From NCBI RefSeq assembly GCF_042242105.1, contig NC_092014.1:1686374-1750373 (forward strand): a stretch of DNA of 64,000 bases. Reading direction: 5' to 3'. Position 1 is the first letter of the stretch. Every line of letters begins with the position of its first letter. Origin of the DNA: Pempheris klunzingeri. Lineage: Eukaryota; Chordata; Actinopteri; Acropomatiformes; Pempheridae. The position numbers were made by a program, and so were the translations under genes. Below are positions 28,066 through 64,000 of this stretch, piece by piece. The notes under the pieces were generated by a model. The model did not search any database. It saw only the letters and a list, made by a program, of their open reading frames with translations, and was not told the DNA's origin.

Positions 28066-37204
<9,139 letters not shown>

Positions 37205-37985: not shown

Positions 37986-38181
37986 CACCAACTGTGTAAA
38001 TCAGAGGGAGGAAACAGAGGAGGAGCAGAGCTTCAACGTCACACTGCAGAACTGAAAGTAAAGTCAGTCAGAGTGGCAGCCAGGCAGCCGTGGAGACACG
38101 TCTGTGTTTCTGTCTGAAGAAAATCCAGACTGACTTCATCAGGTCTCCTCAACAACACAGCAGAGCCTCTGCCAAACACTG
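37986..38181 (+). other. 5' non-coding exon of TRIM copy 1
   Basis: A 196-bp segment ends at a strong donor (CTG/GTGAGTAC). The acceptor 'ttcccactgtgtgcag' lies at 39,190, three bases before the ATG. All four units preserve the donor, intron and acceptor. The transcription start is not known, so the left end is only the homology border. Confidence 0.6.
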
Positions 38182-38480
38182 GTGAGTACAGATGATCACA
38201 TTTACAGCTTCAATCACCAGGATCAACACAAAGCTTCAGCTCCGCTCAGCAGGAAGTTCCACATTTCACACTTGTGACGTTGGTTAAAGTAGAACTACGG
38301 CTGTTTGTCCAGCGACCACTTTAACAGCTTTAAACAGCCTCTGTGTGTCAGCTCTCAGGACTTTAGGGACTTTAAACTGATTCTCTGTGGTTTGGAGTTT
38401 AGTTTCACTCTCACTTTCCTGCTGTCATTACTGTTTACTGATCACTACATGCAGCCATACTGCTTCCTGTTTCCTCTACT

Positions 38481-38536
38481 GCTTCACAATAAAGGCTTTC
38501 CAGCAGAGAGCCAGCAGGAGGCTTTTAATGTGAAGC
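38481..38536. repeat. 56-bp palindrome in TRIM intron 1
   Basis: Arms 'gcttcacaataaaggc' and 'gcttttaatgtgaagc'. Same family as 32,656-32,708. Copies in the other units are at 45,307-45,362, 53,106-53,161 and 60,524-60,579. Confidence 0.65.
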
Positions 38537-38795
38537 ACCAAGAGGAAATGGAACATGTTTCTCATCAGGTATTCAGGGAACAGTGAGGATCCTGGGCGTC
38601 GGCCAAAACAGTGATGTCACATAGATGAAACTGAACACGACTGACTAATATCATCACTTTGCACCCAAAGTACCTGAAACATTTAGTCCCAGGAATCTTT
38701 TTTCAAGGAACTTAAAGGCTCCTTCAGCCAGTTGTTGTCTAAAAGACCTGTGAAGATCAGGAAAGTTAGCCCGCTGACGCCTGTAGGCTCCATCA

Positions 38796-39090
38796 TATCT
38801 TAAAGAGCTCATGGTACCGTACTACCCCACTGGAGCTCTGAGCTCCCAGACTGCAGCCGACTGGTGGCTCCTAAAGTCCTCTGAAGTAGTGATGGAGCCA
38901 GAGCTTTCAGCTATCAGGCTCCTCTCCTGTGGAATCTGCTTCCAGTTTGGGTTCGGGAGTCAAACACCTCTACATTTCAGAGAGGGTCAAAAACCTCCAC
39001 TTAGTGATGAAGCCTATAGTTTAGGGCTGGTTCAGGCCTTGGACCAGCCTCTAGTGATGCTGCTGTAGGCTCAGACTGCCGGGGGATGTT
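38796..39090 (+). repeat. non-LTR retroelement 3' fragment in the TRIM intron
   Basis: 'aggctcctctcctgtggaat', 'ccagtttgggttcggga' and 'agcctatagtttagggctgg' match the degenerate C-terminal and 3'UTR region of an abundant fish LINE. The 85-codon frame across it is a relic, not a gene. It is co-duplicated at 45,622-45,916, 53,421-53,715 and 60,839-61,133. Confidence 0.65.
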
Positions 39091-39192
39091 ATTATTATTC
39101 ATGTATTAACTATTGTCATGTTTTCCACTGGTACCATGTTTTTAGTTTTTTGACTACACTGTTCTTCCTTTTCTTTCCCACTGTGTGCAGAC

Positions 39193-40833
39193 ATGGCTGC
39201 TGCAAACTATCTGAGATCTGAAGATCAGTTTCTGTGCTCCATCTGTCTGGATGTGCTCACTGATCCCGTCACCACACCATGTGGACACAACTTCTGCAAA
39301 ACCTGCATCACTGAACACTGGAACACTAACGACCGGTTTCTGTGTCCCTTGTGTAACAAGGCTTTTACCACAAGACCTGATTTGTGTGTCAACACTTTGC
39401 TCTCTGAGATGGTCTCTCAGTTCAGACAGTCAGCTCAACAGGACGCCAGCAGCAGCAGCTCAGAGCAACAAGTGTCCAAACCAGGAGAAGTTCCCTGTGA
39501 CGTCTGTGCTGGAACCAAACTGAAGGCCCTGAAGTCCTGCCTGGTGTGTCTGGTCTCCTACTGTGAGACTCACCTGGAGCCTCATCTGACAGCTTCACGT
39601 CTGAAAAGACACCAGCTGATCGACCCTGTGGAGAACCTGGACAGCAGGATGTGTACGAAGCACGATAAACCTCTGGAGCTGTTCTGTAAGACCGACCAGA
39701 CGTGTATCTGTGTGCTCTGCTCTGTTTTAGACCACAAGACACATGAGTTTGTTCCTCTGAAAGAAGAATATGAAGGACAGAAGGCCGAGCTGGGGAAGAC
39801 AGAGGCTGAAATCCAGCAGATGATCCTGAAGAGACGACTGAAGATTGAGGAGATCAAACGGTCAGCTGACCTCAGTCAGGAAGATGCAGACAGAGAGATA
39901 GCAGAAGGTGTTCAGGTCTTCACTTCTCTGAAGGAGCGTGTTGAGAGAGGCCAGGCAGAGCTCATCAACACCATCAAAGAGAAGCAGGAAAGAGCAGAAA
40001 AACAGGCCCAAGCTTTCATCAGAGAGCTGGAACAGGAAATCTCTGAGCTGATGAAGAGGAGGACTGAGGTGGAGCAGCTCTCACGCTCTGAAGACCACCT
40101 CCATCTCCTCCAGAGTGTCCAGACCCTCAACACCAACCAGCCTCCAGCCACCAGGGACTGGACAGAGGTCAGCGTCCCTCCACCGTCCTATGAGGGGACT
40201 GTGAGCAGAGCTGTGGCTCAGCTGGAGGAGGATCTCAGTAAAGAGATGATCAAAGCTGAGCTGAGGAGGGTCCAGCAGTTTGCAGTGGATGTGACTCTTG
40301 ATCCTGATACAGCAAATCCTGATCTCATCCTGTCTGATGATGGGAAACAAGTGTATGATAGTGATGTGGAGAAGAATCTCCCAGACAATCCAGAGAGGTT
40401 TTCTAAGTCTACCTGTGTCTTAGGAGAGCAGAGTTTCTCTTCAGGCAGATTCTACTTTGAGGTTCAGGTTAAAGAAAAAACTGAATGGACTTTAGGAGTG
40501 GCCAGAGAGTCGATCAACAGGAAAGAGATCATCATACTGAGCCCTAAGAATGGTTACTGGACTGTATGGTTGAGGAATGGGAATGAGTACAAAGCTGCTG
40601 GTAACCCTTCAGTCCTTCTCTCTCTGAGGTCTCAGCTTCAGAAGGTGGGGGTGTTTGTGGACTATGAGGACGGTCTGGTCTCCTTTTATGACGTAGATGC
40701 TGCAGCTCTCATCTACTCCTTCACCAGCTGCTCCTTCACTGAGAAACTCTTCCCCTTCTTCAGTCCGGGTAATAATGATGGAGGCAAAAACTCTGCCCCT
40801 CTGATCATCTCTCCTGTACACGCAGTAGACTGA
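39193..40833 (+). CDS. TRIM copy 1: RING/B-box/coiled-coil/PRY-SPRY E3 ligase, bloodthirsty-like
   Basis: A single exon of 546 residues. RING C3HC4 uses C15, C18, C30, H32, C35, C38, C51 and C54. A B-box1-like Cys/His cluster spans about 102-140, and B-box2 spans 154-184 (C154, H157, C165, D168, C173, C176, H181, H184). The coiled coil is about 190-300, PRY from about 366 (LDPDTANP), and SPRY from about 415 to the end (GRFYFEVQV, YEDGLVSFYDV). The start is supported by the acceptor 3 nt upstream and an ACATGG context. RING-TRIM proteins are ubiquitin ligases that dimerise by the coiled coil and recognise targets with PRY-SPRY; many fish members act in antiviral innate immunity. The wording resembles teleost bloodthirsty-related/TRIM39-like genes more than finTRIMs, by recall only. 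It lacks three residues (KKL-type) after M352 present in the other copies, and its B-box2 is the most divergent (CICVLC..DHKTH). Confidence 0.92.
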   Translation: MAAANYLRSEDQFLCSICLDVLTDPVTTPCGHNFCKTCITEHWNTNDRFLCPLCNKAFTTRPDLCVNTLLSEMVSQFRQSAQQDASSSSSEQQVSKPGEVPCDVCAGTKLKALKSCLVCLVSYCETHLEPHLTASRLKRHQLIDPVENLDSRMCTKHDKPLELFCKTDQTCICVLCSVLDHKTHEFVPLKEEYEGQKAELGKTEAEIQQMILKRRLKIEEIKRSADLSQEDADREIAEGVQVFTSLKERVERGQAELINTIKEKQERAEKQAQAFIRELEQEISELMKRRTEVEQLSRSEDHLHLLQSVQTLNTNQPPATRDWTEVSVPPPSYEGTVSRAVAQLEEDLSKEMIKAELRRVQQFAVDVTLDPDTANPDLILSDDGKQVYDSDVEKNLPDNPERFSKSTCVLGEQSFSSGRFYFEVQVKEKTEWTLGVARESINRKEIIILSPKNGYWTVWLRNGNEYKAAGNPSVLLSLRSQLQKVGVFVDYEDGLVSFYDVDAAALIYSFTSCSFTEKLFPFFSPGNNDGGKNSAPLIISPVHAVD

Positions 40834-41367
40834 TGACTTCTCTTATTTCATGTGATGATTTACTGCATTTAAGAGAGTGAATGAACATTTATAGTGTCAA
40901 CGAAATATCTGATTTCATACAGAATCTGTTTGCTTTGGTGATTGATTTATATGGATCCATCACAGAGGAAACACGTCAGTTTGCTGATTTTTGGGTCATT
41001 TGTTTCTGTTTTATTACTGTTCTTCTATTTGATGTGCAGCCACAGAAAACATGCTGCTGAATATTTCACTGTGTCGTCAACAGTTCGGTCCATTACATAC
41101 CTGCAGTGTCTACAGAGAACAGCTTGTCTTTGTTATGACGGCTACAAAAACTTAATGGACAAAGTCATTAATAGAACTGATGCAGAATTTTCTATGTGAT
41201 GTGAAAAGTGGTTTGGTGAATTACTGGTGGCTTTGGTCAGTTTTTATGTGGTTTGTGAATAATTTGTGGTTCATGGTGAATAATCTGTAAATGTGTGACA
41301 ACAATGGAGAGAGGTAATTACTGGATTTAAAGACATTAAAGAGCTGTTTCTGCCAATCATCAATAAA
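40834..41367 (+). other. TRIM copy 1 3' region to AATAAA
   Basis: Likely 3'UTR ending near AATAAA (41,362-41,367), with another AATAAA in 'cacaataaactcaca' about 300 bp on. It includes an 82-codon frame from ATG 40,951 to 41,199 that is preserved in all four units and encodes one hydrophobic segment (SLLIFGSFVSVLLLFFYLM). Its coding status is unproven. Confidence 0.5.
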
Positions 41368-42244
41368 TAGTTTGAAAAATGGGCTTTGATTCTGTGGAAA
41401 TCTTCAGGGTTTTAACCGTTTGCCTTCAGCCCGACCGTGTGCTTCCTGCTGTTTGACTAAAATGACTTTTACCTTCTTCACATGTTCAGTAAAATCCACA
41501 CGTCGTCCTGCTTGTGAATCATTTCATTGGTGCAGCCTGAACTCACTCATCTCCCTGGCAGGTTTTGGGGTGAGTACGGGAGAGACGGCCGGGACGGATA
41601 TGATGAGGGTCACATGACTGACGGGGGAGGGCGGCCGACCAGACTGCTCCTCTTCCCAGCTTCTCACAATAAACTCACATATGAACTCATCCTTTCTGTC
41701 TTAAACTGTAACATAACACCTCACTCATCAAAAACACTTCATTCACCTTCAAACTCCTGAAAATGCTCAGAAAAGGGGAAAGTTTGAACACCTACAGTTC
41801 TGTGACAACTGAAGACCATGTGACACGGTCAAAAACTCTGGAAGAAGACAACAAGTGGCCCTTGAGTTGAGAGTTTTTGGCAGACTGACGTTTTCAAACT
41901 AAACAAAATGATGTTTTCCAACGGCACACTCTGGTTTCACTTTATAACAAGAAGAAACATCTGTGGTATCAAATACTGAGATATCACATGATGTAAATAT
42001 AAAGTATTGATTAAGATGTGGTAGGAACTGATACACGATGGTTAGTATGACAGGAGTGTTGATCAAATAACCAAGGTAGTAGAAGATGTAACCAATCAAT
42101 AAGCATGAAACAATGCAACCAAATATCACATTTTATACTCTGTTTTAAATATAGGATTTTTTTTAACACTTTGTTTAAAAAATGCAGAAAGAGGAAACCA
42201 GAACCTTAAAGGTGTAAATTGACGTGAAAGTATTGTTTAAAAAG

Positions 42245-42589
42245 TGTTGAGGAGGAGCTGGAACCTAATAGTGCCAGCAGATGGTGCTGTAGGATAAAGA
42301 CAAAATAATAGCTGCTCAGTGGAAGCTCACAAGGTCGGACAAAGTGATCAGGTCAAGTGGAGTTCAGAGGGACAAACTCCTCCTCATCAAAGGTGGTATA
42401 ATTTCATTGGGTGGGGAAAGATGCTAGGGGGCAGGCAGATGCTGGTTTTGGGTTATAAAAGATGGAACCTGTGCATTGTTTAGTCAGAACTGTTTGTTTG
42501 GGCTTTGTTGTCGACAATAAACCTCCACTGTGCTGAACTCTGAACTCTCCCGGTGCCTATTTGGATGATTTACTCTTTGGTTTTTGACA
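42245..42589 (+). mobile_element. LTR-like segment in unit 1 spacer
   Basis: Starts TGTTGAGG and ends TTTTTGACA. It carries a TATA box 'gttataaaag' about 55 nt before 'acaataaacc', the layout of a retroviral-type LTR. Equal-length 345-bp copies occur in units 2 and 3. No target duplication is visible, so this remains a candidate. Confidence 0.35.
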
Positions 42590-43124
42590 CTTTGAAGAAC
42601 CTGGATGGAGAAGATTGACCCAGAAAAGATAAGAATGACGATAAAAGTGATGAGAGCACAGAAAGAAAATGTAATGTTGATCACCATAAACAAAGTGGTG
42701 TAAACTCTTTAAAGCTTCCCACTGTCACCAGACGTTACAGTTACACTCCACAGCCTGATGGTAACGTCAGTACATGATGCAAAACACAATGTCTGCTTAC
42801 CTTCATCTTCATCAGCAGCCACTGTGCAGTAGAAACTCTATGACGTCTCTATTGAGGCTAACAGACAGTTTTAGACTCTGAAGCATTAGTCCAAGACTTA
42901 AGAAGCACTCATTGTGATGATGGAATGATTTCACCAGTACAGACAGTTTAAAGTCCTGTTAAAACTGGGAATAAAGGAGCAGTTTCCTGTTTTCATCTGT
43001 AGTTTCCTGCAGTGCTTCTTCTTGCAGGCAACAACACAGACCGACAACAATAATTCAAGTTCTGTTTGCTGAAAGTCGACCTCATTGTTTCAGGTTAAAT
43101 TTCAACACTGACTACAAAATAATA

Positions 43125-44379
43125 TTGTCTGGTCTCTCTGGAATGGAATCCTGAGAACCTGGGAGCTGTGTTGTCGGGGGCTATGGCCCCTGATAGGGTC
43201 TCCAAACGCAAAGTGGTTCCAGGGGAGGGGCCAGAGTAAGAGCGGTTCAAAAACCCTGTATGAAGAAGAAGCTAAAGAGCAACGTACCCTCACCCGGGTT
43301 AGGGAATCCGGGACCCCCTTCTGGAGCCAGGCCAAGCCCAAAGGAATACCGTAGCACTGCAACCCTGTGGGTACCTGGCATGCAGACCCCCAGCATTGTA
43401 GACTGGCTGTAGGGACACAGAACATCACCTCTCTTTTGAGGAAAGAGTTGGAGCTGGTGCGGGAGGCTGAGCCCTACCAGTTAAGACATAGTTGGGCGTC
43501 GGCTCTGGAACCAAACTCCTGGAGAAGGGCTGGACTCTCTCCTTTTCCAGAGTTGCCCAGGGTGAGAGGCGCCAGACGGGTGTGGGGATACTCAGGAGGG
43601 AGTCCCCGGCTGAGTGTTGGAGTTCTCCCCAGTGAACAAGAGGGCCGCCTCCATGTGACTACGGGTTGCTGATTGTTGTGTGTGCATATGAACCTTACAG
43701 CAGTTCAGAGTATCCGGCCTTCTTGGAGGCTCTGGATGGATCAGATGGTGGGAGAGGCGGCCGGACAGACCTGGTCGGCCCAAAAGTGTAGTGAGGGTTT
43801 GCTGGGAATGTCTGGTGGAGGCCCCTGTCCTGGAGGTCTTCAACTCCCACCTCCAGAAGAGTTTCTCTTACATCCCAGGGGAGGTTGGGGACATGGAATC
43901 CCAGTGGGCCATGTTCAAAGCCTCCATTGCAGAGGTGGCTGCTGAGAGCTGTGGCCAGAAAGTCATCGGTGCTGGACCAAGAATCCGCTGTTGGATGCCA
44001 GCGGTGACGGAGTCCATCAAGCTGAAGAAGCAGGCCTTTTGGGCCTGGCTGGCTCAGGGGTCTCCTGAAGCAGCAGATCGGTATCAGGCATCCAGAAGGT
44101 CGGCGGCTTCAGTGGTCACTGAGTTCGAGGAGGCTATGGAGAAGGACTTTTGGGTGGCCTCAAGGAACTTTTGGCAAACCATTCAGCGGCTCAGGAAGGG
44201 AAAGCGGGGCTTGGCTCAGGCTGTATTCAGCCGGGGAGGAGAATCGCTGACCCAGACTGGGGATATTGTTGGGCGGCGGAAAGAACTCTTTGAGGAACTC
44301 CTGAACCCAATCAACACAGAGTCTGAAGACTCGGGGGAAGCAACACAACAACAAATAGTGTTGTCTGGTCTCTCTGGAA
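43125..44379 (+). mobile_element. truncated LINE flanked by a 19-bp direct repeat
   Basis: TTGTCTGGTCTCTCTGGAA occurs at 43,125-43,143 and 44,361-44,379, while units 2 and 3 carry it once in the corresponding spacer (51,848 and 59,743). The insert begins with text of a familiar fish LINE ('ggggctatggcccctgatag'). It encodes broken endonuclease-start text (VGTQNITSLLRKELELVREA) and, at 43,791-44,340, the linker before the reverse transcriptase (KLKKQAFWAWLAQGSPEAAD, FWQTIQRLRKGKRG, DIVGRRKELFEELLNP). Most of the endonuclease and all of the RT core are missing. The family was not named. Confidence 0.75.
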
Positions 44380-44805
44380 GACTCATCCAACAAAAACTGG
44401 TGTGTACCTTCATTTCAGCAGGGCACATTTCTGGAGGCCTGACAGCCTCCTCATATCTGACCACTTGTACATGACTCCCTGCTGCACTGCAGCAACAACA
44501 ACAGGTGGACCACCGACTGCTGCTGCCAACCAGAACGACCACTAGATGGACCACAACAGAGGGATGATGAGCCCAAAGTGAGTGTACTGCTGCCATGCCG
44601 AGGACCAAACACTCCTGGTACATGTGAGCGAACACACCGTCCGTCATGTTCAGGATCATCACTCATGATGGCCGAGGACCCGACCAACAGCCTCACACCA
44701 GTCTCTGCAGGAGGAGACGCCAGCTACAGTAAAACCTCCCTCCTCCACCTGTTGGGTGCAGAACCACCTTTGTTCCATATTAACAGAGAAGACTGGGGAG
44801 TTTCC

Positions 44806-45001
44806 CACCAACTGTGTAAATCAGGGGGAGGAACCAGAGGAGGAGCAGAGCTTCAACGTCACACTGCAGAACTGAAAGTAAAGTCAGTCAGAGTGGCAGC
44901 CAGGCAGCCGTGGAGACACGTCTGTGTTTCTGTCTGAAGAAAATCCAGACTGACTTCATCAGGTCTCCTCAACAACACAGCAGAGCCTCTGCCAAACACT
45001 G
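44806..45001 (+). other. 5' non-coding exon of TRIM copy 2
   Basis: 196 bp ending at the same CTG/GTGAGTAC donor. The intron is 45,002-46,016. Confidence 0.6.
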
Positions 45002-46018
45002 GTGAGTACAGATGATCACATTTACAGCTTCAACCACCAGGATCAACACAAAGCTTCAGCTCCGCTCAGCAGGAAGTTCCTCTTTTCTCATTTCACACTT
45101 GTGACGTTGGTTAAAGTAGAACTACGGCTGTTTGTCCAGCGACCACTTTAACAGCTTTAAACAGCCTCTGTGTGTCAGCTCTCAGGACTTTAGGGACTTT
45201 AAACTGATTCTCTGTGGTTTGGAGTTTAGTTTCCCTCCACTTTCCTGCTGTCATTACTGTTTACTGATCACTACATGCAGCCATACTGCTTCCTGTTTCC
45301 TCTACTGCTTCACAATAAAGGCTTTCCAGCAGAGAGCCAGCAGGAGGCTTTTAATGTGAAGCACCAAGAGGAAATGGAACATGTTTCTCATCAGGTATTC
45401 AGGGAACAGTGAGGATCCTGGGCGTCGGCCAAAACAGTGATGTCACATAGATGAAACTGAACACGACTGACTAATATCATCACTTTGCACCCAAAGTACC
45501 TGAAACATTTAGTCCCAGGAATCTTTTTTCAAGGAACTTAAAGGCTCCTTCAGCCAGTTGTTGTCTAAAAGACCTGTGAAGATCAGGAAAGTTAGCCCGC
45601 TGACGCCTGTAGGCTCCATCATATCTTAAAGAGCTCATGGTACCGTACTACCCCACTGGAGCTCTGAGCTCCCAGACTGCAGCCGACTGGTGGCTCCTAA
45701 AGTCCTCTGAAGTAGTGATGGAGCCAGAGCTTTCAGCTATCAGGCTCCTCTCCTGTGGAATCTGCTTCCAGTTTGGGTTTGGGGGTCAAACACCTCTACA
45801 TTTCAGAGAGGGTCAAAAACCTCCACTTAGTGATAAAGCCTATAGTTTAGGGCTGGTTCAGGCCTTGGACCAGCCTCTAGTGATGCTGCTGTAGGCTCAG
45901 ACTGCCGGGGGATGTTATTATTATTCATGTATTCACTATTGTCATGTTTTCCACTGGTACCATGTTTTTAGTTTATTGACTACAGTGTTTTTCCTTTTCT
46001 TTCCCACTGTGTGCAGAC

Positions 46019-47668
46019 ATGGCTGCTGCAAACTATCTGAGATCTGAAGATCAGTTTCTGTGCTCCATCTGTCTGGATGTGCTCACTGATCCCGTCACCA
46101 CATCATGTGGACACAACTTCTGCAAAACCTGCATCACTGAACACTGGAACTCTAACGACCGGTTTCTGTGTCCAGTGTGTAAAGAGGCTTTTACCACAAG
46201 ACCTGATTTGAGGGTCAACACTTTGCTCTCTGAGATGGTCTCTCAGTTCAGACAGTCAGCTCAACAGGACGCCAGCAGCAGCAGCTCAGAGCAACAAGTG
46301 TCCAAACCAGGAGAAGTTCCCTGTGACGTCTGCGCTGGAACCAAACTGAAGGCCCTGAAGTCCTGCCTGGTGTGTCTGGTCTCCTACTGTGAGACTCACC
46401 TGGAGCCTCATCTGACAGCTTCACGTCTGAAAAGACACCAGCTGATCGACCCTGTGGAGAACCTGGACAGCAGGATGTGTACGAAGCACGATAAACCTCT
46501 GGAGCTGTTCTGTAAGACCGACCAGACGTGTGTCTGCATGCTCTGCCCTGTTTTAGACCACATAGGACATAAGTTTGTTCCTCTGAAAGAAGAATATGAA
46601 GGACAGAAGGCCGAGCTGGGGAAGACAGAGGCTGAAATCCAGCAGATGATCCAGAAGAGACGACTGAAGATTGAGGAGATCAAACGGTCAGCTGACCTCA
46701 GTCAGGAAGATGCAGACAGAGAGATAGCAGAAGGTGTTCAGGTCTTCACTTCTCTGAAGGAGCGTGTTGAGAGAGGCCAGGCAGAGCTCATCAACACCAT
46801 CAAAGAGAAGCAGGAAAGAGCAGAAAAACAGGCCCAAGCTTTCATCAGAGAGCTGGAACAGGAAATCTCTGAGCTGATGAAGAGGAGGACTGAGGTGGAG
46901 CAGCTCTCACGCTCTGAAGACCACCTCCATCTCCTCCAGAGTGTCCAGACCCTCAACACCAACCAGCCTCCAGCCACCAGGGACTGGACAGAGCTCAGCG
47001 TCCCTCCACCGTCCTATGAGGGGACTGTGAGCAGAGCTGTGGCTCAGCTGGAGGAGGATCTCAGTAAAGAGATGAAGAAGCTGATTAAAGCTGAGCTGAG
47101 GAGGGTCCAGCAGTTTGCAGTGGATGTGACTCTTGATCCTGATACAGCAAATCCTTATCTCATCCTGTCTGATGATGGGAAACAAGTGTATGATAGTGAT
47201 GTGAGGAAGAAACTCCCAGACAATCCAGAGAGGTTTTCTAAGTGTATCATTGTCTTAGGAGAGCAGAGTTTCTCTTCAGGCAGATTCTACTTTGAGGTTC
47301 AGGTTAAAGGAAAAACTGAATGGGATTTAGGAGTGGCCAGAGAGTCGATCAGCAGGAAAGAGAACATCAAACTGAGCCCTGAGGATGGTTACTGGACTGT
47401 ATGGTTGAGGAATGGGAATGAGTACCAAGCTCTTGATAACCCTTCAGTCCGTCTCTCTCTGAGGTCTCAGCCTCAGAAGGTGGGGGTGTTTGTGGACTAT
47501 GAGGACGGTCTGGTCTCCTTTTATGACGTAGATGCTGCAGCTCTCATCTACTCCTTCACCGGCTGCTCCTTCACTGAGAAACTCTTCCCCTACTTCGGTC
47601 CGGAAGATAATGATGGAGGCAAAAACTCTGCCCCTCTGATCATCTCTCCTGTACACGCAGTAGACTGA
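46019..47668 (+). CDS. TRIM copy 2: bloodthirsty-like RING/B-box/PRY-SPRY E3 ligase
   Basis: A single exon of 549 residues, with the same domain order as copy 1 and all RING zinc ligands intact. It shares the RING segment CPVCKEAFTTRPDLRVN with copy 3. In SPRY it shares FSKCIIV and WDLGVARESISRKEN with copy 4, and FTGCSF with copy 3. Private changes include NSNDRF in the RING, LCPVLDH in B-box2, YQALDNPSVRLS and YFGPEDNDGG in SPRY loops. Likely an active ubiquitin ligase of innate immunity, by family inference. The target is unknown. Confidence 0.92.
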   Translation: MAAANYLRSEDQFLCSICLDVLTDPVTTSCGHNFCKTCITEHWNSNDRFLCPVCKEAFTTRPDLRVNTLLSEMVSQFRQSAQQDASSSSSEQQVSKPGEVPCDVCAGTKLKALKSCLVCLVSYCETHLEPHLTASRLKRHQLIDPVENLDSRMCTKHDKPLELFCKTDQTCVCMLCPVLDHIGHKFVPLKEEYEGQKAELGKTEAEIQQMIQKRRLKIEEIKRSADLSQEDADREIAEGVQVFTSLKERVERGQAELINTIKEKQERAEKQAQAFIRELEQEISELMKRRTEVEQLSRSEDHLHLLQSVQTLNTNQPPATRDWTELSVPPPSYEGTVSRAVAQLEEDLSKEMKKLIKAELRRVQQFAVDVTLDPDTANPYLILSDDGKQVYDSDVRKKLPDNPERFSKCIIVLGEQSFSSGRFYFEVQVKGKTEWDLGVARESISRKENIKLSPEDGYWTVWLRNGNEYQALDNPSVRLSLRSQPQKVGVFVDYEDGLVSFYDVDAAALIYSFTGCSFTEKLFPYFGPEDNDGGKNSAPLIISPVHAVD

Positions 47669-48204
47669 TGACTTCTCTTATTTCATGTGATGATTTACTG
47701 CATTTAAGAGAGTGAATGAACATTTATAGTGTCAACTAAATATCTGATTTCATACAGAACCTGTTTTCTTTGGTGATTGATTTATATGGATCCATCACAG
47801 AGGAAACACGTCAGTTTGCTGATTTTTGGGTCATTTGTTTCTGTTTTATTACTGTTCTTCTATTTGATGTGCAGCCACAGAAAACATGCTGCTGAATATT
47901 TCACTGTGTCGTCAACAGTTCGGTCCATTACATACCTGCAGTGTCTACAGAGAACAGCTTGTCTTTGTTATGACGGCTACAAAAACTTAATGGACAAAGT
48001 CATTAATAGAACTGATGCAGAATTTTCTATGTGATGTGAAAAGTGGTTTGGTGAATTACTGGTGGCTTTGGTCAGTTTTTATGTGGTTTGTGAATAATTT
48101 GTGGTTCATGGTGAATAATCTGTAAATGTGTGATTGTACAATGGAGAGAGGTAATTACTGGATTTAAAGACATTAAAGAGCTGTTTCTGCCAATCATCAA
48201 TAAA
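47669..48204 (+). other. TRIM copy 2 3' region to AATAAA
   Basis: AATAAA at 48,199-48,204. The 82-codon downstream frame is intact from ATG 47,786. This unit lacks a ~70-bp segment present in units 3 and 4 (see 55,939-56,008). Confidence 0.5.
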
Positions 48205-52603: not shown

Positions 52604-52799
52604 CACCAACTGTGTAAATCAGAGGGAGGAAACAGAGGAGGAGCAGAGCTTCAACGTCACACTGCAGAACTGAAAGTAAAGTCAGTCAGAGTGGCAGCCA
52701 GGCAGCCGTGGAGACACGTCTGTGTTTCTGTCTGAAGAAAATCCAGACTGACTTCATCAGGTCTCCTCAACAACACAGCAGAGCCTCTGCCAAACACTG
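52604..52799 (+). other. 5' non-coding exon of TRIM copy 3
   Basis: 196 bp ending at the same donor. The intron is 52,800-53,815. Because of the solo LTR, the sequence immediately upstream differs from that of other copies. Confidence 0.6.
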
Positions 52800-53817
52800 G
52801 TGAGTACAGATGATCACATTTACAGCTTCAACCACCAGGATCAACACAAAGCTTCAGCTCCGCTCAGCAGGAAGTTCCTCTTTTCTCATTTCACACTTGT
52901 GACGTTGGTTAAAGTAGAACTACGGCTGTTTGTCCAGCGACCACTTTAACAGCTTTAAACAGCCTCTGTGTGTCAGCTCGCAGGACTTTAGGGACTTTAA
53001 ACTGATTCTCTGTGGTTTGGAGTTTAGTTTCACTCTCACTTTCCTGCTGTCATTACTGTTTACTGATCACTACATGCAGCCATACTGCTTCCTGTTTCCT
53101 CTACTGCTTCACAATAAAGGCTTTCCAGCAGAGAGCCAGCAGGAGGCTTTTAATGTGAAGCACCAAGAGGAAATGGAACATGTTTCTCATCAGGTATTCA
53201 GGGAACAGTGAGGATCCTGGGCGTCGGCCAAAACAGTGATGTCACATAGATGAAACTGAACACGACTGACTAATATCATCACTTTGCACCCAAAGTACCT
53301 GAAACATTTAGTCCCAGGAATCTTTTTTCAAGGAACTTAAAGGCTCCTTCAGCCAGTTGTTGTCTAAAAGACCTGTGAAGATCAGGAAAGTTAGCCCGCT
53401 GACGCCTGTAGGCTCCATCATATCTTAAAGAGCTCATGGTACCGTACTACCCCACTGGAGCTCTGAGCTCCCAGACTGCAGCCGACTGGTGGCTCCTAAA
53501 GTCCTCTGAAGTAGTGATGGAGCCAGAGCTTTCAGCTATCAGGCTCCTCTCCTGTGGAATCTGCTTCCAGTTTGGGTTCGGGAGTCAAACACCTCTACAT
53601 TTCAGAGAGGGTCAAAAACCTCCACTTAGTGATGAAGCCTATAGTTTAGGGCTGGTTCAGGCCTTGGACCAGCCTCTAGTGATGCTGCTGTAGGCTCAGA
53701 CTGCCGGGGGATGTTATTATTATTCATGTATTAACTATTGTCATGTTTTCCACCGGTACCATGTTGCTAGTTTATTGACTACAGTGTTTTTCCTTTTCTT
53801 TCCCACTGTGTGCAGAC

Positions 53818-55467: not shown

Positions 55468-56076
55468 TGACTTCTCTTATTTCATGTGATGATTTACTGC
55501 ATTTAAGAGAGCGAATGAACATTTATAGTGTCAACTAAATATCTGATTTCAAACAGAATCTGTTTGCTTTGGTGATTGATTTATATGGATCCATCACAGA
55601 GGAAACACGTCAGTTTGCTGATTTTTGGGTCATTTGTTTCTGTTTTATTACTGTTCTTCTATTTGATGTGCAGCCACAGAAAACATGCTGCTGAATATTT
55701 CACTGTGTCGTCAACAGTTCGGTCCATTACAAACCTGCAGTGTCTACAGAGAACAGCTTGTCTTTGTTATGACGGCTACAAACACTTAATGGACAAAGTC
55801 ATTAATAGAACTGATGCAGAATTTTCTATGTGATGTGAAAAGTTGTTTGGTGAATTACTGGTGGCTTTGGTCAGTTTTTATGTGGTTTGTGAATAATTTG
55901 TGGTTCATGGTGAATAATCTGTAAATGTGTGATTGTACAATGAAGCAGATGTTGAACACGAGGCCTGAATGAGAAGAGAACAGAAAAGCCTGTTGTTTGT
56001 CACCACCAACAATGGAGAGAGGTAATTACTGGATTTAAAAGACATTAAAGAGCTGTTTCTGCCAATCATCAATAAA
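55468..56076 (+). other. TRIM copy 3 3' region to AATAAA
   Basis: AATAAA at 56,071-56,076. The 82-codon frame from ATG 55,585 is intact. A ~70-bp segment (about 55,939-56,008) present here and in unit 4 is missing from units 1 and 2. ACAATG lies at both borders, which fits deletion by short homology. Confidence 0.5.
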
Positions 56077-56950
56077 TAGTTTGAAAAATGGGCTTTGATT
56101 CTGTGGAAATCTTCAGGGTTTTAACCGTTTGCCTTCAGCCCGACCGTGTGCTTCCTGCTGTTTGACTAAAATGACTTTTACCTTCTTCACATGTTCAGTA
56201 AAATCCACACGTCGTCCTGCATGTGAATCATTTCATTGGTGCAGCCTGAACTCGCTCATCTCCCTGGCAGGTTTTGGGGTGAGTACAGGAGAGACCGGGA
56301 CTGATATGATGAGGGTCACATGACTGACGGGGGAGGGCGGCCGACCAGACTGCTCCTCTTCCCAGCTTCTCACAATAAACTCACACATGAACTCATCCTT
56401 TCTGTCCTAAACTGTAACATAACACCTCACTCATCACAAACACTTCATTCACCTTCAAACTCCTGAAAATGCTCAGAAAAGGGGAAAGTTTGAACACCTA
56501 CAGTTCTGTGACAACTGAAGACCATGTGACACGGTCAAAAACTCTGGAAGAAGACAACAAGTAGCCCTTGAGTTGAGAGTTTTTGGCAGACTGACGTTTT
56601 CAAACTAAACAAAATGATGTTTTCCAACGGCACACTCTGGTTTCACTTTATAACAAGAGGAAACATCTGTGGTATCAAATACTGAGATATCACATGATGT
56701 AAATATAAAGTATTGATTAAGATGTGGTAGGAACTGATACACGATGGTTAGTATGACAGGAGTGTTGATCAAATAACCAAGGTAGTAGAAGATGTAACCA
56801 ATCAATAAGCATGAAACAATGCAACCAGATATCACATTTTATACTCTGATTTAAATATAGGATTTTTTAACACTTAACATTTAAAAATTGCAGAAAGAGG
56901 AAACCAGAACCTTAAAGGTGTAAATTGACGTGAAAGTATTGTTTAAAAAG

Positions 56951-57295
56951 TGTTGAGGAGGAGCTGGAACCTAATAGTGTCAGCAGATGGTGCTGTAGGA
57001 TAAAGACAAAATAATAGCTGCTCAGTGGAAGCTCACAAGGTCGGACAAAGTGATCAGGTCAAGTGGAGTTCAGAGGGACAAACTCCTCCTCATCAAAGGT
57101 GGTATAATTTCATTGGGTGGGGAAAGATGCTAGGGGGCAGGCAGATGCTGGTTTTGGGTTATAAAAGATGGAACCTGTGCATTGTTTAGTCAGAACTGTT
57201 TGTTTGGGCTTTGTTGTGGACAATAAACCTCCACTGTGCTGAACTCTGAACTCTCCCGGTGCCTATTTGGAAGATTGACTCTTTGGTCTTTGACA
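56951..57295 (+). mobile_element. LTR-like segment in unit 3 spacer
   Basis: Third 345-bp copy of the TGTTGAGG...TTTGACA segment. Confidence 0.35.
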
Positions 57296-57333
57296 CTTTA
57301 TAACTTCTGTTGCTTCTAACAAGAGGAAACATC

Positions 57334-58146
57334 TGTTACAGGTACCGGCTGGTACCAAGTAAACAGATTATCGATTCTGCAAACAGAACAAATGACTGAG
57401 ACAGGGCAACTTTGCTTCCGCTTGTTCAGCCTCGCTCAGCAGAATCCAATTTATTCTCATTTGCGATTACAACAATAAACCTTCTCTTTATAACTCATTC
57501 ACAGACCAGCTATTAAAATCAAACTCCTAATTACATGTTGTTCAGTGTTCTTACTGAATTACAATTTATATTTTAATTCACCAAATCTTAATAAACAATA
57601 ACAATGTTTGGATCCTTGCAGGTTGTATCCTAACCATGAATATCATTACCATTCCTGTTCCAGTCACAGGTTTCGTTGTGTGAGCATCCAATAGCTCTTA
57701 GCATGCTACTGCTAACAGTGGAAATGGCTTTGCGGTTTTTATTAAATGTAACAACCATTTTCTTACCATATTTTAACAATATTTACATATACAACAGCAT
57801 CATAAAATATTTTCTGAATATTTACACATCAAACCAAATGTACAGGAGCCCAACGATAACCAACTGAATGGCGCGATGCAGGATGAGCATTTACCACAGC
57901 GCCATTTTGTGCTAATATGCTGATGGCCAGTAACAGATATTCATTACGTTATATATACATAAATTCTGCTACCATTCTCTTTACAGACAACCCAACTCAA
58001 ACATCAATCGATATGTTCACAAAGTAAACACAACAGACCGTGATGCCGCAAAAGCCACAAAGCGACTGCTGCAAACACACAACACAAAGTGCCCCGCTGC
58101 CTCCTGCTGGCCAAAGGCGGGAACGACATGTTAATTCCCTGTAACA
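57334..58146. mobile_element. 813-bp insertion with TGTTACAGG ends (unit 3)
   Basis: Same length and position as 49,441-50,253, with only a few differences. It therefore arrived before units 2 and 3 separated. Confidence 0.45.
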
Positions 58147-58463
58147 AAACAAATGCATTGCCTACTGTGGACACCTTAAAAGCATGTTGCTACTACTTAC
58201 AAACACAAAATACATCATCATAATTGTGACTTCACAATTGTGGCGTCACACATCACAGAGCAAAAAGCCGTCTGAAACCGAAACAATCAGAACGACAATA
58301 AAGGTAATGAGCACAGAAAGAAAGTCCAAGAGTTAAGAAGCACTCATTGGGATGATGAAATGATTTCACCAGTACAGACAGTTTAAAGTCCTGTTAAAAC
58401 TGGGAATAAAGGAGCAGTTTCCTGTTTTCATCCGTAGTTTTCTGCAGTGCTTCCTCTTGTAGG

Positions 58464-59645
58464 TGTAACATGTATTAAATGAATACAAGGATAATTATAA
58501 TGAGACCACAAATGGCTAGAATATCAGAAGAAACTAAATACGGCTACTGGAGGGCAGGGATGTGCAGTAAATAAAGACGATGACAGTATTTGCAGTTGAA
58601 TATGGAAAATATATTGAACCATAAAGTGCACAAAACAAAATCAAAAATCATAATATTTACAATCCTGCAATTCCTGAATAACTGGTTTAGCATTCAACCA
58701 TTCAAAATGCACATTTATAATTGGCCAATAATTGCTTAACATGAGTCACAGTGCAGTCACCCAGGTCTAACTCCCTGATCAAAACACATGATCAAATGAA
58801 CGAGCTTAGAGTTTTTTGGGTTTGAGGAGTAATGATGGAGAAATGCATATAATCCAGAAATATGAATGTGGTGAAATGCTCGGATCGAGAAGGTGGGATA
58901 GTAGGCAGGCTGGCAGGCGAAACTGACTGCAACAAGTTCTCTTCAGGCTCCTGGCCTTGTTTCCTAGCTCGCCATCTTGGAGTTGGTGCCAAGGCAGGGC
59001 ACCTGGCCTGCATGGACCAAACAATCCATTTAGAAACTCAAAGACAAAGCTAATGAATGCTACGCTAACATAGCATGTCTCACCATATAATAGTATAAAT
59101 TACACCACAATCAGACATGCATTTACAATCTTGTGTTAGCATGTTAGCATATTAACATGATACATTGGTATCCAAAATCAGCCCTGCAAGTGTCGACAAG
59201 TTACTAGACCCTTATGTTAGCATTAGCCTATACGCTAACATTGTAGCTAATGCTAACAGGCCGTCATCCATCATCACATTTAATTGACAATTCAAAAGTC
59301 ACCAGTTCAGCAGTTCAGTCTCACGCCACACAAGATAACAGGCCCCAACACACATGCAATGGTCTGGTTCTAAATGGTTGGTTACAAACAACATGATTTA
59401 AACCAGGAAACTGCATGATATTTGAATTAAGGTATGAAATTGTTTGGAAACCTGACCTGTAGCTGTTGTCCCCTGGCCTCTCTCCCACACAACCAAAAGG
59501 GAAATGAGGTCAGGGCAGCTTATATAGTGCCTCGGAGACAAGTGATTGGGAGTTTGAAGTCATGTGACTGTCATGTGACATGGTACATTCAAAAGAATGG
59601 GAAAAACACACACTGGGCTAAACAGTGATTTCAACCCTGGTTACA
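58464..59645 (-). mobile_element. 1,182-bp insertion with TGTAAC ends (unit 3)
   Basis: Counterpart of 50,557-51,750, shorter by 12 bp ('ggggtttgaaat' missing near 58,514). Same borders. Confidence 0.45.
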
Positions 59646-60021
59646 CCGGCAACAAGACGGATAACGACAATAATTCAAGTTCTGTTTGCTGAAAGTCGAC
59701 CTCATTGTTTCAGGTTGAATTTCAACACAACAACAAATAGTGTTGTCTGGTCTCTCTGGAAGAGTCATCCAACAAAAACTGGTGTGTACCAAAGTGAGCG
59801 TACTGCTGCCACGCCGAGCACCAAACACTCCTGGTACATGTGAGCGAACACACCGTCCGTCATGTTCAGGATCATCACTCATGATGGCCGAGGACCCGAC
59901 CAACAGCCTCACACCAGTCTCTGCAGGAGGAGACGCCAGTTACAGTAAAACCTCCCTCCTCCAACTGTTGGGTACAGAACCACCTTTGTTCCACATTAAC
60001 AGAGAAGACTGGGGAGTTTCC

Positions 60022-60217
60022 CACCAACTGTGTAAATCAGGGGGAGGAACCAGAGGAGGAGCAGAGCTTCAACGTCACACTGCAGAACTGAAAGTAAAGT
60101 CAGTCAGAGTGGCAGCCAGGCAGCCGTGGAGACACGTCTGTGTTTCTGTCTGAAGAAAATCCAGACTGACTTCATCAGGTCTCCTCAACAACACAGCAGA
60201 GCCTCTGCCAAACACTG
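60022..60217 (+). other. 5' non-coding exon of TRIM copy 4
   Basis: 196 bp ending at the same donor. The intron is 60,218-61,233. Confidence 0.6.
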
Positions 60218-61235
60218 GTGAGTACAGATGATCACATTTACAGCTTCAACCACCAGGATCAACACAAAGCTTCAGCTCCGCTCAGCAGGAAGTTCCTCTT
60301 TTCTCATTTCACACTTGTGACGTTGGTTAAAGTAGAACTACGGCTGTTTGTCCAGCGACCACTTTAACAGCTTTAAACAGCCTCTGTGTGTCAGCTCTCA
60401 GGACTTTAGGGACTTTAAACTGATTCTCTGTGGTTTGGAGTTTAGTTTCACTCTCACTTTCCTGCTGTCATTACTGTTTACTGATCACTTCATGCAGCCA
60501 TACTGCTTCCTGTTTCCTCTACTGCTTCACAATAAAGGCTTTCCAGCAGAGAGCCAGCAGGAGGCTTTTAATGTGAAGCACCAAGAGGAAATGGAACATG
60601 TTTCTCATCAGGTATTCAGGGAACAGTGAGGATCCTGGGCGTCGGCCAAAACAGTGATGTCACATCGATGAAACTGAACACGACTGACTAATATCATCAC
60701 TTTGCACCCAAAGTACCTGAAACATTTAGTCCCAGGAATCTTTTTTCAAGGAACTTAAAGGCTCCTTCAGCCAGTTGTTGTCTAAAAGACCTGTGAAGAT
60801 CAGGAAAGTTAGCCCGCTGACGCCTGTAGGCTCCATCATATCTTAAAGAGCTCATGGTACCGTACTACCCCACTGGAGCTCTGAGCTCCCAGACTGCAGC
60901 CGACTGGTGGCTCCTAAAGTCCTCTGAAGTAGTGATGGAGCCAGAGCTTTCAGCTATCAGGCTCCTCTCCTGTGGAATCTGCTTCCAGTTTGGGTTTGGG
61001 GGTCAAACACCTCTACATTTCAGAGAGGGTCAAAAACCTCCACTTAGTGATAAAGCCTATAGTTTAGGGCTGGTTCAGGCCTTGGACCAGCCTCTAGTGA
61101 TGCTGCTGTAGGCTCAGACTGCCGGGGGATGTTATTATTATTCATGTATTAACTATTGTCATGTTTTCCACTGGTACCATGTTGCTAGTTTATTGACTAC
61201 ACTGTTTTTCCTTTTCTTTCCCACTGTGTGCAGAC

Positions 61236-62885
61236 ATGGCTGCTGCAAACTATCTGAGATCTGAAGATCAGTTTCTGTGCTCCATCTGTCTGGATGTGCT
61301 CACTGATCCCGTCAGCACACCATGTGGACACAACTTCTGCAAAACCTGCATCACTGAACACTGGAACACTAACGACCGGTTTCTGTGTCCCTTGTGTAAC
61401 AAGGCTTTTACCACAAGACCTGATTTGTGTGTCAACACTTTGCTCTCTGAGATGGTCTCTCAGTTCAGACAGTCAGCTCAACAGGACGCCAGCAGCAGCA
61501 GCTCAGAGCAACAAGTGTCCAAACCAGGAGAAGTTCCCTGTGACGTCTGCGCTGGAACCAAACTGAAGGCCCTGAAGTCCTGCCTGGTGTGTCTGGTCTC
61601 CTACTGTGAGACTCACCTGGAGCCTCATCTGACAGCTTCACGTCTGAAAAGACACCAGCTGATCGACCCTGTGGAGAACCTGGACAGCAGGATGTGTACG
61701 AAGCACGATAAACCTCTGGAGCTGTTCTGTAAGACCGACCAGACGTGTGTCTGCATGCTCTGCTCTGTTTTAGACCACATAGGACATAAGTTTGTTCCTC
61801 TGAAAGAAGAATATGAAGGACAGAAGGCCGAGCTGGGGAAGACAGAGGCTGAAATCCAGCAGATGATCCAGAAGAGACGACTGAAGATTGAGGAGATCAA
61901 ACGGTCAGCTGACCTCAGTCAGGAAGATGCAGACAGAGTGATAGCAGAAGGTGTTCAGGTCTTCACTTCTCTGAAGGAGCGTGTTGAGAGAGGCCAGGCA
62001 GAGCTCATCAACACCATCAAAGAGAAGCAGGAAAGAGCAGAAAAACAGGCCCAAGCTTTCATCAGAGAGCTGGAACAGGAAATCTCTGAGCTGATGAAGA
62101 GGAGGACTGAGGTGGAGAAGCTCTCACGCTCTGAAGACCACCTCCATCTCCTCCAGAGTGTCCAGACCCTCAACACCAACCAGCCTCCAGCCACCAGGGA
62201 CTGGACAGAGGTCAGCGTCCCTCCACCGTCCTATGAGGGGACTGTGAGGAGAGCTGTGGCTCAGCTGGAGCAGGATCTCAGTAAAGAGATGAAGGAGTTG
62301 ATCAAAGCTGAGCTGAGGAGGGTCCAGAAGTTTGAAGTGGATGTGAACCTTGATCCTGATACAGCACATCCTAAACTCATCCTGTCTGATGATGGGAAAC
62401 AAGTGAGTGTTAGTGATGTGAGGAAGAAACTCCCAGACAATCCAGAGAGGTTTTCTAAGTGTATCATTGTCTTAGGAGAGCAGAGTTTCTCTTCAGGCAG
62501 ATTCTACTTTGAGGTTCAGGTTAAAGGAAAAACTGATTGGGATTTAGGAGTGGCCAGAGAGTCGATCAGCAGGAAAGAGAACATCATACTGAGCCCTGAG
62601 GATGGTTGCTGGACTGTATGGTTGAGGAATGGGAATGAGTACAAAGCTCTTGAGAACCCTCCAGTCCTTCTCTCTCTGAGGTCTCAGCCTCAGAAGGTGG
62701 GGGTGTTTGTGGACTATGAGGACGGTCTGGTCTCCTTTTATGACGTAGATGCTGCAGCTCTCATCTACTCCTTCACCAGCTGCTCCTTCACTGAGAAACT
62801 CTTCCCCTACTTCTGTCCGGGTAATAATAATAGAGGCAAAAACTCTGCCCCTCTGATCATCTCTCCTGTACACGCAGTAAACTGA
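61236..62885 (+). CDS. TRIM copy 4: bloodthirsty-like RING/B-box/PRY-SPRY E3 ligase
   Basis: A single exon of 549 residues. It shares CPLCNKAFTTRPDLCVN and FTSCSF with copy 1, VSTxCGHNFC with copy 3, FSKCIIV and WDLGVARESISRKEN with copy 2, and EDGCWTV and YKALENPPVLLS with copy 3. Private: KEMKEL and KFEVDVNL in the linker, VSVSDV in PRY, TDWDLG, and FCPGNNNRG near the end. It ends AVN where the others end AVD. RING and B-box2 ligands are intact. This copy best shows the mosaic nature of the array. Confidence 0.92.
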   Translation: MAAANYLRSEDQFLCSICLDVLTDPVSTPCGHNFCKTCITEHWNTNDRFLCPLCNKAFTTRPDLCVNTLLSEMVSQFRQSAQQDASSSSSEQQVSKPGEVPCDVCAGTKLKALKSCLVCLVSYCETHLEPHLTASRLKRHQLIDPVENLDSRMCTKHDKPLELFCKTDQTCVCMLCSVLDHIGHKFVPLKEEYEGQKAELGKTEAEIQQMIQKRRLKIEEIKRSADLSQEDADRVIAEGVQVFTSLKERVERGQAELINTIKEKQERAEKQAQAFIRELEQEISELMKRRTEVEKLSRSEDHLHLLQSVQTLNTNQPPATRDWTEVSVPPPSYEGTVRRAVAQLEQDLSKEMKELIKAELRRVQKFEVDVNLDPDTAHPKLILSDDGKQVSVSDVRKKLPDNPERFSKCIIVLGEQSFSSGRFYFEVQVKGKTDWDLGVARESISRKENIILSPEDGCWTVWLRNGNEYKALENPPVLLSLRSQPQKVGVFVDYEDGLVSFYDVDAAALIYSFTSCSFTEKLFPYFCPGNNNRGKNSAPLIISPVHAVN

Positions 62886-64000
62886 TGACTTCTCTTATTT
62901 CATGTGATGATTTACTGCATTTAAGAGAGCGAATGAACATTTATAGTGTCAACTAAATATCTGATTTCAAACAGAATCTGTTTTCTTTGGTGATTGATTT
63001 ATATGGATCCATCACAGAGGAAACACGTCAGTTTGCTGATTTTTGGGTCATTTGTTTCTGTTTTATTACTGTTCTTCTATTTGATGTGCAGCCACAGAAA
63101 ACATGCTGCTGAATATTTCACTGTGTCGTCAACAGTTCGGTCCATTACAAACCTGCAGTGTCTACAGAGAACAGCTTGTCTTTGTTATGACGGCTACAAA
63201 AACTTAATGGACAAAGTCATTAACAGAACTGATGCAGAATTTTCTATGTGATGTGAAAAGTTGTTTGGTGAATTACTGGTGGCTTTGGTCAGTTTTTATG
63301 TGGTTTGTGAATAATTTGTGGTTCATGGTGAATAATCTGTAAATGTGTGATTGTACAATGAAGCAGATGTTGAACACGAGGCCTGAATGAGAAGAGAACA
63401 GAAAAGCCTGTTGTTTGTCACCACCAACAATGGAGAGAGGTAATTACTGGATTTAAAAGACATTAAAGAGCTGTTTCTGCCAATCATCAATAAATAGTTT
63501 GAAAAATGGGCTTTGATTCTGTGGAAATCTTCAGGGTTTTAACCGTTTGCCTTCAGCCCGACCGTGTGCTTCCTGCTGTTTGACTAAAATGACTTTTACC
63601 TTCTTCACATGTTCAGTAAAATCCACACGTCGTCCTGCATGTGAATCATTTCATTGGTGCAGCCTGAACTCGCTCATCTTCCTGGCAGGTTTTGGGGTGA
63701 GTACAGGAGAGACCGGGACTGATATGATGAGGGTCACATGACTGACGGGGGAGGGCGGCCGACCAGACTGCTCCTCTTCCCAGCTTCTCACAATAAACTC
63801 ACACATGAACTCATCCTTTCTGTCCTAAATTGTAACATAACACCTCACTCATCACAAACACTTCATTCACCTTCAAACTCCTGAAAATGCTCAGAAAAGG
63901 GGAAAGTTTGAACACCTACAGTTCTGTGACAACTGAAGACCATGTGACACGGTCAAAAACTCTGGAAGAAGACAACAAGTGGCCCTTGAGTTGAGATGTT
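62886..64000 (+). other. TRIM copy 4 3' region
   Basis: AATAAA at 63,489-63,494 and again in 'cacaataaactcacac' near 63,789. The 82-codon frame from ATG 63,003 is intact. The remainder is spacer like that of unit 3. Confidence 0.5.

Follow-up and report, generated by a model that had tools for sequence, protein, structure and literature searches.

In this article I discuss a tandem array of TRIM genes in the fish Pempheris klunzingeri, which probably belongs to a single pool of 24 or more recombining genes related to bloodthirsty (btr/TRIM39-like), shaped by gene conversion and by diversifying selection on the presumed ligand-binding face of their products. The window, meaning the whole 64,000-nt stretch of contig NC_092014.1 that was analysed (contig positions 1686374-1750373), ends in four such units (Table 1). 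A preliminary description spoke of a four-copy array; four is correct for the window, but the number is set by the window edge, as a six-frame search, whose copy counts are lower bounds, places at least 24 copies within 370 kb of the same contig (1438204-1808370), in clusters A, B and C, of which B is inverted. The other 23 copies have 91-95% protein identity to copy 2, and the next nearest relative beyond the 24 has 72% (on contig C5).

The same description had read the window's copies as a tandem TRIM/PRY-SPRY array, and this holds: the four genes are near-identical, with RING, B-box, coiled coil and PRY-SPRY, each of the four coding exons is one uninterrupted reading frame of 546-549 aa (copy 1 lacks three residues, KKL, before the PRY through a 9-nt deletion), and in all four proteins Pfam places zf-RING_UBOX and zf-C3HC4 over their curated cut-offs at the RING, PF00643 and PF25600 over cut-off for the B-box and TRIM coiled coil, and PF13765 and PF00622 over cut-off for the PRY and SPRY at the C-terminus; NCBIfam gives sub-threshold matches only. 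The PRY-SPRY matches TRIM21 and pyrin structures (TRIM21 alignment E about 1e-55). In class IV TRIM proteins the PRY-SPRY binds the ligand, the RING ubiquitinates and the TRIM coiled coil dimerises the protein.

Exchange within and between the clusters

Variants in the four window copies group in ways that cut across one another. In the RING, copies 1 and 4 have CPLCNKAF..LCVN and copies 2 and 3 have CPVCKEAF..LRVN; early in the SPRY, copies 1 and 3 carry EWTLGVARESINRKE against WDLGVARESISRKEN in copies 2 and 4; further on, copies 3 and 4 have YKALENPPVLLS in common; and later FTSCSF in copies 1 and 4 stands against FTGCSF in copies 2 and 3. All of these groupings, first pointed out in the preliminary description, are present in the sequence, and its statement that no single tree explains them is borne out by the 42 two-against-two sites in the ~3.9 kb shared by the four copies, which represent all three splits and fall into 13 runs, clustered beyond chance (permutation P about 1e-5). 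When sites no more than 2 bp apart are reduced to the first, 30 remain (15/9/6) in 12 runs (P = 0.0018), and the coding-only merged sites number 15 in 6 runs (P = 0.011).

A GENECONV-type test, which had been suggested for this array, is too weak on the window alone: a GENECONV-like longest-run test on the four copies gave a best P of 0.031 for all sites and 0.027 for coding sites, uncorrected, and is not significant over the six pairs. The pairwise homoplasy index (PHI), applied to the 22 full exons of the family (the 24 copies minus the RING-less B1 and C8, hence 11 from A and B and 11 from C), is significant for the whole exon (P = 0.001), for the PRY-SPRY (P = 0.01) and for residues 1-364 (P = 0.0005), and for the whole exon also within C alone (P = 0.003) and within A and B alone (P = 0.0005). 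The proposed segment exchange is supported in this way far more by the other copies than by the window's four, and part of the SPRY mosaic may be recurrent mutation. Among 20 P. klunzingeri proteins (a set that leaves out P0007, which equals copy 4, and the isoforms P0027 and P0038), PHI on the PRY-SPRY protein is significant as well (P = 0.0006), and the excess association, 0.25 for sites within 2 residues of each other, drops to 0.05 at 6-10 and to zero beyond 50. Each of the window's copies has nearest relatives that switch both copy and cluster along the exon (five 330-nt windows), and the mean longest run shared across clusters is significant (P = 0.003).

When the 11 full exons of A and B taken together are set against the 11 of C, at least two of the same bases are polymorphic on each side at 102 nucleotide positions, of which 12 lie in codons with silent variation only. 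Fixed differences are limited to codons 545-546, where the exon ends, and amount to three sites (columns in which one group or the other had fewer than 8 letters were skipped); by pair, shared and fixed sites number 60 and 0 for A-B, 81 and 3 for A-C, and 78 and 3 for B-C. Three of seven 24-nt N-terminal haplotypes match exactly across A, B and C, the 9-nt deletion before the PRY is common to C1 (copy 1), C7 and B6, and another 9-nt deletion, in the PRY-SPRY, is common to A2, A5 and C5. A2 and C5 are identical over codons 1-97 and again over 192 nt of the PRY-SPRY (codons 463-526) spanning 31 polymorphic sites, and differ at 40 codons elsewhere.

Homology between A/B and C exons stops upstream at -47 to -42 (A5 excepted) and, in most pairs, at +27 to +40 after the stop, with a weakly related 3' flank beyond; A5, although in cluster A, carries a C-type intron. 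A donor-bearing block further upstream aligns between A/B and C at 96-98% over 0.33-0.63 kb in the pairs tried, so that the non-aligning part is the intron next to the coding exon (~0.57-0.69 kb in A1-C2). These pairwise extents replaced a whole-flank alignment of the 22 copies, in which 1.2-kb flanks were aligned as homologous and gave a nucleotide diversity of 0.17-0.45 per 200-column block, except in the last upstream one (0.025). A 0.39-kb donor island lies, whole or partial, upstream of all 24 copies at 97-100% identity (it is 197 nt in A2 and A3 and split in most B genes); the copy-2 island is identical to that of A1, in another cluster, at 388 of 388 nt, and 97% identical to that of copy 1. 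Conversion that halts where homology ends would leave just this picture, with exon and island alike and the stretch between them turning over.

The abruptness with which the exon homology breaks off also suggested a mobile cassette with exact ends, which was rejected in view of the donor island shared upstream of every copy, the 3' edges, diverged yet related, and the C-type intron of A5; intron turnover together with exchange is the simpler account. A retrocopy was rejected too: what the copies share extends into the intron, over the polypyrimidine tract and the acceptor before the ATG.

Judging from the layout, tandem duplication would have produced the copies in the three clusters, and gene conversion, aided by unequal crossing-over within clusters, would keep coding exon and island alike across all of them, the inverted one included, and would also reassort the variants. 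Exchange is observed among the copies and I infer conversion as its mechanism; of the two mechanisms named in the preliminary description, gene conversion or unequal crossing-over, the inverted cluster B favours the former for its own part, since unequal crossing-over would not simply explain how an inverted cluster belongs to the pool and conversion would.

Several observations on the family stand beside these. RING-side variants at residues 5-9 and 53-65 (e.g. 39205-39387), with NYLRS against SCLLY or SFLLY and LNK against VKE, make up haplotypes to which silent differences are linked, and these are found in all clusters; many of these positions also vary in the Sander and Perca proteins described below. 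B1 (1573686-1575059) and C8 (1777899-1779290), both outside the window and in different clusters, are RING-less through the same in-frame loss of ~80 codons and have related 5' flanks (B1 also runs off its 3' end); they may possibly be decoys or dominant negatives. Cluster B holds three additional 197-nt island copies (contig positions 1541084, 1555356 and 1568763), in each case upstream of a gene with an island of its own. Dozens more TRIM-like open reading frames (ORFs), many clustered closely, occur on contigs C8, C7, C23, C15 and C4, with 32-37% identity to copy 2.

Replacement change in the PRY-SPRY

All 36 varying codons in the window's PRY-SPRY are non-synonymous and none is synonymous (binomial P = 2e-5), with pairwise non-synonymous divergence (dN) of 0.057-0.088, synonymous divergence (dS) of 0.003-0.012 and copy flanks that differ by 0.006-0.016. 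The preliminary description had read the SPRY variants without selection and so missed this near-pure pattern, which indicates that selection shapes them. Minimum-change counts, which favour the null, give non-synonymous to synonymous changes in the PRY-SPRY of 53:2 in the window (P = 1.7e-5), 95:13 in C (P = 8e-4), 79:11 in A and B (P = 0.0013) and 118:22 in all 22 copies (P = 0.0065), and the excess is significant there and in no other part tested. Among the 22 copies 58 of 185 PRY-SPRY residues vary; in these 58 non-synonymous columns the third base is constant in 39 and there is one codon per residue in 51, as would be expected if diversity had risen quickly from a uniform backbone, and at 34 chosen hypervariable positions all 22 copies have different haplotypes.

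A review names W299, D355, W381, W383, F450 and D452 as key Fc contacts of TRIM21, the antibody Fc receptor (PMC6722209), and these align to positions 380, 436, 462, 464, 530 and 532 of the copies, the numbering having been matched by hand. Each of the six is variable in the 22-copy set (P = 8e-4, given that 58 of 185 residues vary), four are among the 24 most variable positions (P = 0.003), and four vary among the window's own copies, 462 and 464 being constant. The likeness to TRIM21 and TRIM5alpha is that the PRY-SPRY aligns and that the six named TRIM21 contacts are variable positions here; the difference is that here the contact positions differ between copies, so that a common Fc-like ligand would not be expected. 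A structure prediction of copy 2 from 53 sequences reached a mean predicted local distance difference test (pLDDT) score of only 51.8, and no loop or surface statistics were taken from it.

Diversifying selection, visible in the counts of non-synonymous and synonymous changes, would keep altering some 25-30 codons on the PRY-SPRY face that, going by the alignment, grips the ligand in TRIM21, and the pattern says that ligand choice may be what selection changes. The product is likely to be a set of cytosolic ubiquitin ligases with differing ligand specificities, a germline-encoded recognition repertoire that, on the analogy of TRIM5alpha, TRIM21 and the published finTRIM and btr work, is presumably antiviral or immune.

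Contrary observations and other readings

Comparison with other fishes drew on some of the 120 best matches listed from a database clustered at 90%, a sample that does not amount to complete gene sets. By name, the closest relatives are bloodthirsty/TRIM39-like TRIMs of teleosts; the names among the 120 include TRIM39-like, TRIM21-like, Bloodthirsty-2 and a few others (RFP-like, TRIM47-like), and most of the names look automatic. Of the full-length proteins among them that bear a bloodthirsty name, the nearest is Oplegnathus fasciatus Bloodthirsty-2, at 83% identity to copy 2. In trees of 75 sequences, which held no zebrafish btr or ftr reference, a single clade unites all 22 P. klunzingeri copies whether residues 1-364, the PRY-SPRY or the whole protein is used, and the same is true of the 8 Sebastes copies; the 7 Siniperca copies form one for residues 1-364 and the whole, not for the PRY-SPRY, and Sander and Perca copies intermix. 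The variable PRY-SPRY positions tend to coincide between species (entropy profiles; Spearman rho 0.64 each for P. klunzingeri against Sander lucioperca, with 24 listed proteins, and against Perca flavescens, with 13; the Sander rows P0078, P0101 and P0114 are in the entropy and association sets and were left out of the trees). A backbone that is homogenised within lineages, with variation renewed at the same sites, would fit these data.

A number of results weigh against a pool built by exchange and selection. Taken singly, the longest run shared across clusters does not reach significance (P = 0.10), nor does PHI on the PRY-SPRY protein in either Sander (P = 0.07) or Perca (P = 0.70), site association in Sander declines but stays at 0.036 beyond 150 residues, and part of the upstream intron aligns for some A and C genes (A1-C2, 1.06 kb at 96%). 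The non-synonymous excess over 22 copies is modest (ratio about 1.8), so that the window's 36:0 is the extreme end; its lack of synonymous codons is partly luck, and the excess is real and confined to the PRY-SPRY among the parts tested. In the 22 copies silent diversity (piS) is higher in the PRY-SPRY (0.035) than in the coiled coil (0.011), and in the RING it exceeds replacement diversity (piS 0.067, piN 0.038), so that RING haplotypes look older and merely shared. Finally, in six hypervariable PRY-SPRY segments of 12-57 nt only 4 of 102 haplotypes are shared between clusters, so that selected recurrent mutation, and not exchange, could account for some of the mosaic in the SPRY; within the PRY-SPRY, short exchange and recurrent mutation are not separated here.

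The alternative that survives best, although I consider it rather unlikely, carries this last point further and holds that the SPRY groupings are largely convergence, the same codons re-mutating under strong selection with little exchange inside the PRY-SPRY. Besides the scarcity of segment haplotypes common between clusters, it draws on 33 hypervariable codons, picked by hand, where the other species used also show 99 of the 118 residue states of P. klunzingeri (83 of 129 at the control of 61 variable sites of residues 1-364), and on the codon steps, all codons being linked by single steps in 33 of the 41 listed PRY-SPRY columns, a count made without C10 and C11; yet convergence sits badly with a PHI that is significant inside the PRY-SPRY for both DNA and protein, with the 192-nt tract of A2 and C5, with the deletion common to A2, A5 and C5, and with five codons whose recurrent states are at least 2 nt apart with no intermediates, 4 of their 10 pairs being incompatible with one tree.

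A recent block duplication of an already diverse array, with no continuing exchange and with the groupings as leftovers of sorting, is improbable. Sorting without recombination predicts whole-exon partners, whereas nearest relatives change along each exon of the window, site association reaches zero beyond about 50 residues and PHI is significant within either side alone, even if the several intron types within one cluster (that of A5 included) and a silent divergence in the coiled-coil part of ~0.3-1.5% in every comparison, within and between clusters, speak for such a duplication. More improbable still is an assembly artefact, in which haplotypes, or a smaller number of genes, were wrongly arranged as a tandem series, a reading to which C9, C10 and C11 (1784961-1801116) lend some colour by their exact 7,253-bp spacing and the 99.9% identity of C9 and C10 over the 4.1 kb compared, the mark either of very recent duplication or of a spot for an assembly check. 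Misassembly of the window would be unlikely because its unit lengths differ (Table 1), with copy-specific indels and zero N, and because the published assembly is haplotype-phased from high-fidelity (HiFi) reads at about 104x, with a haplotype 1 quality value (QV) of 57.65 and a mean read length of 12.45 kb, more than one unit (PMC12488967). Local hypermutation of the SPRY end of the exon in place of selection is hardly credible: the density of variable nucleotides in the window's PRY-SPRY (0.092, 51 of 555) does exceed that in the flanks (0.015-0.019), but silent sites there are not more divergent than the flanks and the transition to transversion mix is similar (25:20 against 19:19).

Gene layout, related systems and meaning

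Table 1. Features of the array and of the three clusters (positions in the window unless marked as contig positions; coding exons include the stop codon).
Feature	Position	Strand	Description	Basis
Cluster A	contig 1438204-1462395	+	6 genes	
Cluster B	contig 1536524-1575059	- (inverted)	6 genes	
Cluster C	contig 1725566-1808370	+	12 genes; window copies are the first four, C1-C4	
Four tandem units	37968..64000	+	exon spacing 6826, 7799, 7418 bp; window end cuts last unit	
Copy 1 (C1), complete coding exon	39193..40833	+	546 aa, RING-B-box-coiled coil-PRY-SPRY	ORF, Pfam
Copy 2 (C2), complete coding exon	46019..47668	+	549 aa	ORF, Pfam
Copy 3 (C3), complete coding exon	53818..55467	+	549 aa	ORF, Pfam
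Copy 4 (C4), complete coding exon	61236..62885	+	549 aa	ORF; letter-for-letter match to one database protein (P0007)
Copy 1, PRY-SPRY region	40276..40830	+	starts at residue 365 in copy-2 numbering	
Copy 2, PRY-SPRY region	47111..47665	+	residues 365-549	
Copy 3, PRY-SPRY region	54910..55464	+		aligned to TRIM21 PRY-SPRY
Copy 4, PRY-SPRY region	62328..62882	+		
Copy 1, upstream island	38040..38422	+	presumed promoter and non-coding exon 1	donor after 38181
Copy 2, upstream island	44860..45248	+	presumed promoter and non-coding exon 1	donor after 45001
Copy 3, upstream island	52658..53047	+		donor after 52799
Copy 4, upstream island	60076..60465	+		donor after 60217

The likely gene has a non-coding exon 1 and a single coding exon, because an acceptor (TGTGTGCAG/ACATG) stands before every ATG of the four copies and a conserved donor lies ~1.0 kb upstream (in copy 1 CACTG/GTGAGTA, at 38181/38182). 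A scan past position 36500 for motifs like the interferon-stimulated response element (ISRE) and the gamma-activated sequence (GAS) found no perfect ISRE inside the copy-2 upstream island; perfect matches lie outside it, at 50367 and 58274, and copies 2-4 have others on the opposite strand, within the polypyrimidine tract that precedes the ATG. Strings resembling GAS occur in introns and exons, and the island contains one imperfect ISRE. None of these motifs is claimed as functional. Two long ORFs between copies 1 and 2, at 43692-44474 and 44461-44937, have no Pfam match; the first looks, as an impression, like a non-LTR retroelement remnant, and the second overlaps the copy-2 island. Elsewhere in the window an exon with a Sprouty domain (15055-15774, plus strand; PF05210, E 4e-31) looks like the end of a SPRED gene, and an exon on the minus strand (32284-32421) matches actin-related protein 2 (Arp2) structures (E 4e-25), with the TRIM units starting ~5.5 kb beyond it and a long CA/TG-rich simple repeat adjoining it (31526-32280) that opens long spurious ORFs on both strands.

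Selection and recombination in btr B30.2 domains, and conversion with selection in fish NLR-B30.2 genes, are already in print. The btr study of 2011 describes positive selection on the B30.2 and GARD recombination breakpoints in zebrafish btr B30.2, in genes that are relatively dispersed, with clusters on chromosomes 7, 15 and 19 (PMC3137616); the likeness is a class IV TRIM with PRY-SPRY, many copies, a selected B30.2 and recombination, and the difference is that here 24 copies lie in three clusters over 370 kb, with window flanks only 0.6-1.6% apart, exchange that reaches into an inverted cluster, and clusters nearly free of fixed differences from one another. The finTRIM (ftr) paper of 2009 reports family expansion, selected B30.2 loops matching those of TRIM5alpha and TRIM21, a GARD breakpoint and three selected sites just upstream of the RING (PMC2657112); expansion, positively selected loops and a recombination breakpoint are points of likeness, but finTRIM is a different TRIM subset, with trim16/trim25 as its closest mammalian relatives according to that paper. 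For zebrafish NLR-B30.2 genes, a 2016 paper describes gene conversion together with positive selection on the B30.2 and proposes that new variation arises as short conversion tracts bring substitutions together (PMC4852459); conversion and selection on this domain are alike, but those are NLR proteins with a B30.2 and not TRIM ubiquitin ligases, and here the whole TRIM coding exon and its upstream island are in the pool. Among open-licence PubMed Central papers I found nothing closer on this species or on TRIM39/btr exchange. What is new is that 24 copies, some of them in an inverted cluster, form one pool in which hardly any difference is fixed, and that the signal in the window's copies is almost wholly one of replacement.

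A wider and more doubtful proposal, put forward only tentatively, is that spiny-rayed fishes maintain a germline recognition repertoire in which the whole TRIM coding exon circulates as a shared cassette through tandem and inverted clusters, its backbone homogenised time and again in every lineage and the same 25-30 contact codons re-diversifying from that uniform state, with N-terminal/RING types that assort independently of the PRY-SPRY; if this were true, ligase output and ligand specificity would be combined at random. The P. klunzingeri pool is in any case unusually clean, as silent PRY-SPRY sites differ by 0.3-1.2%, close flanks by the little given above and replacement PRY-SPRY sites by 6-9%, so that the residues under selection can be read directly. 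It supplies natural panels of PRY-SPRY variants on a single backbone, and it makes testable how conversion and diversifying selection build a germline repertoire in a vertebrate that also has adaptive immunity.

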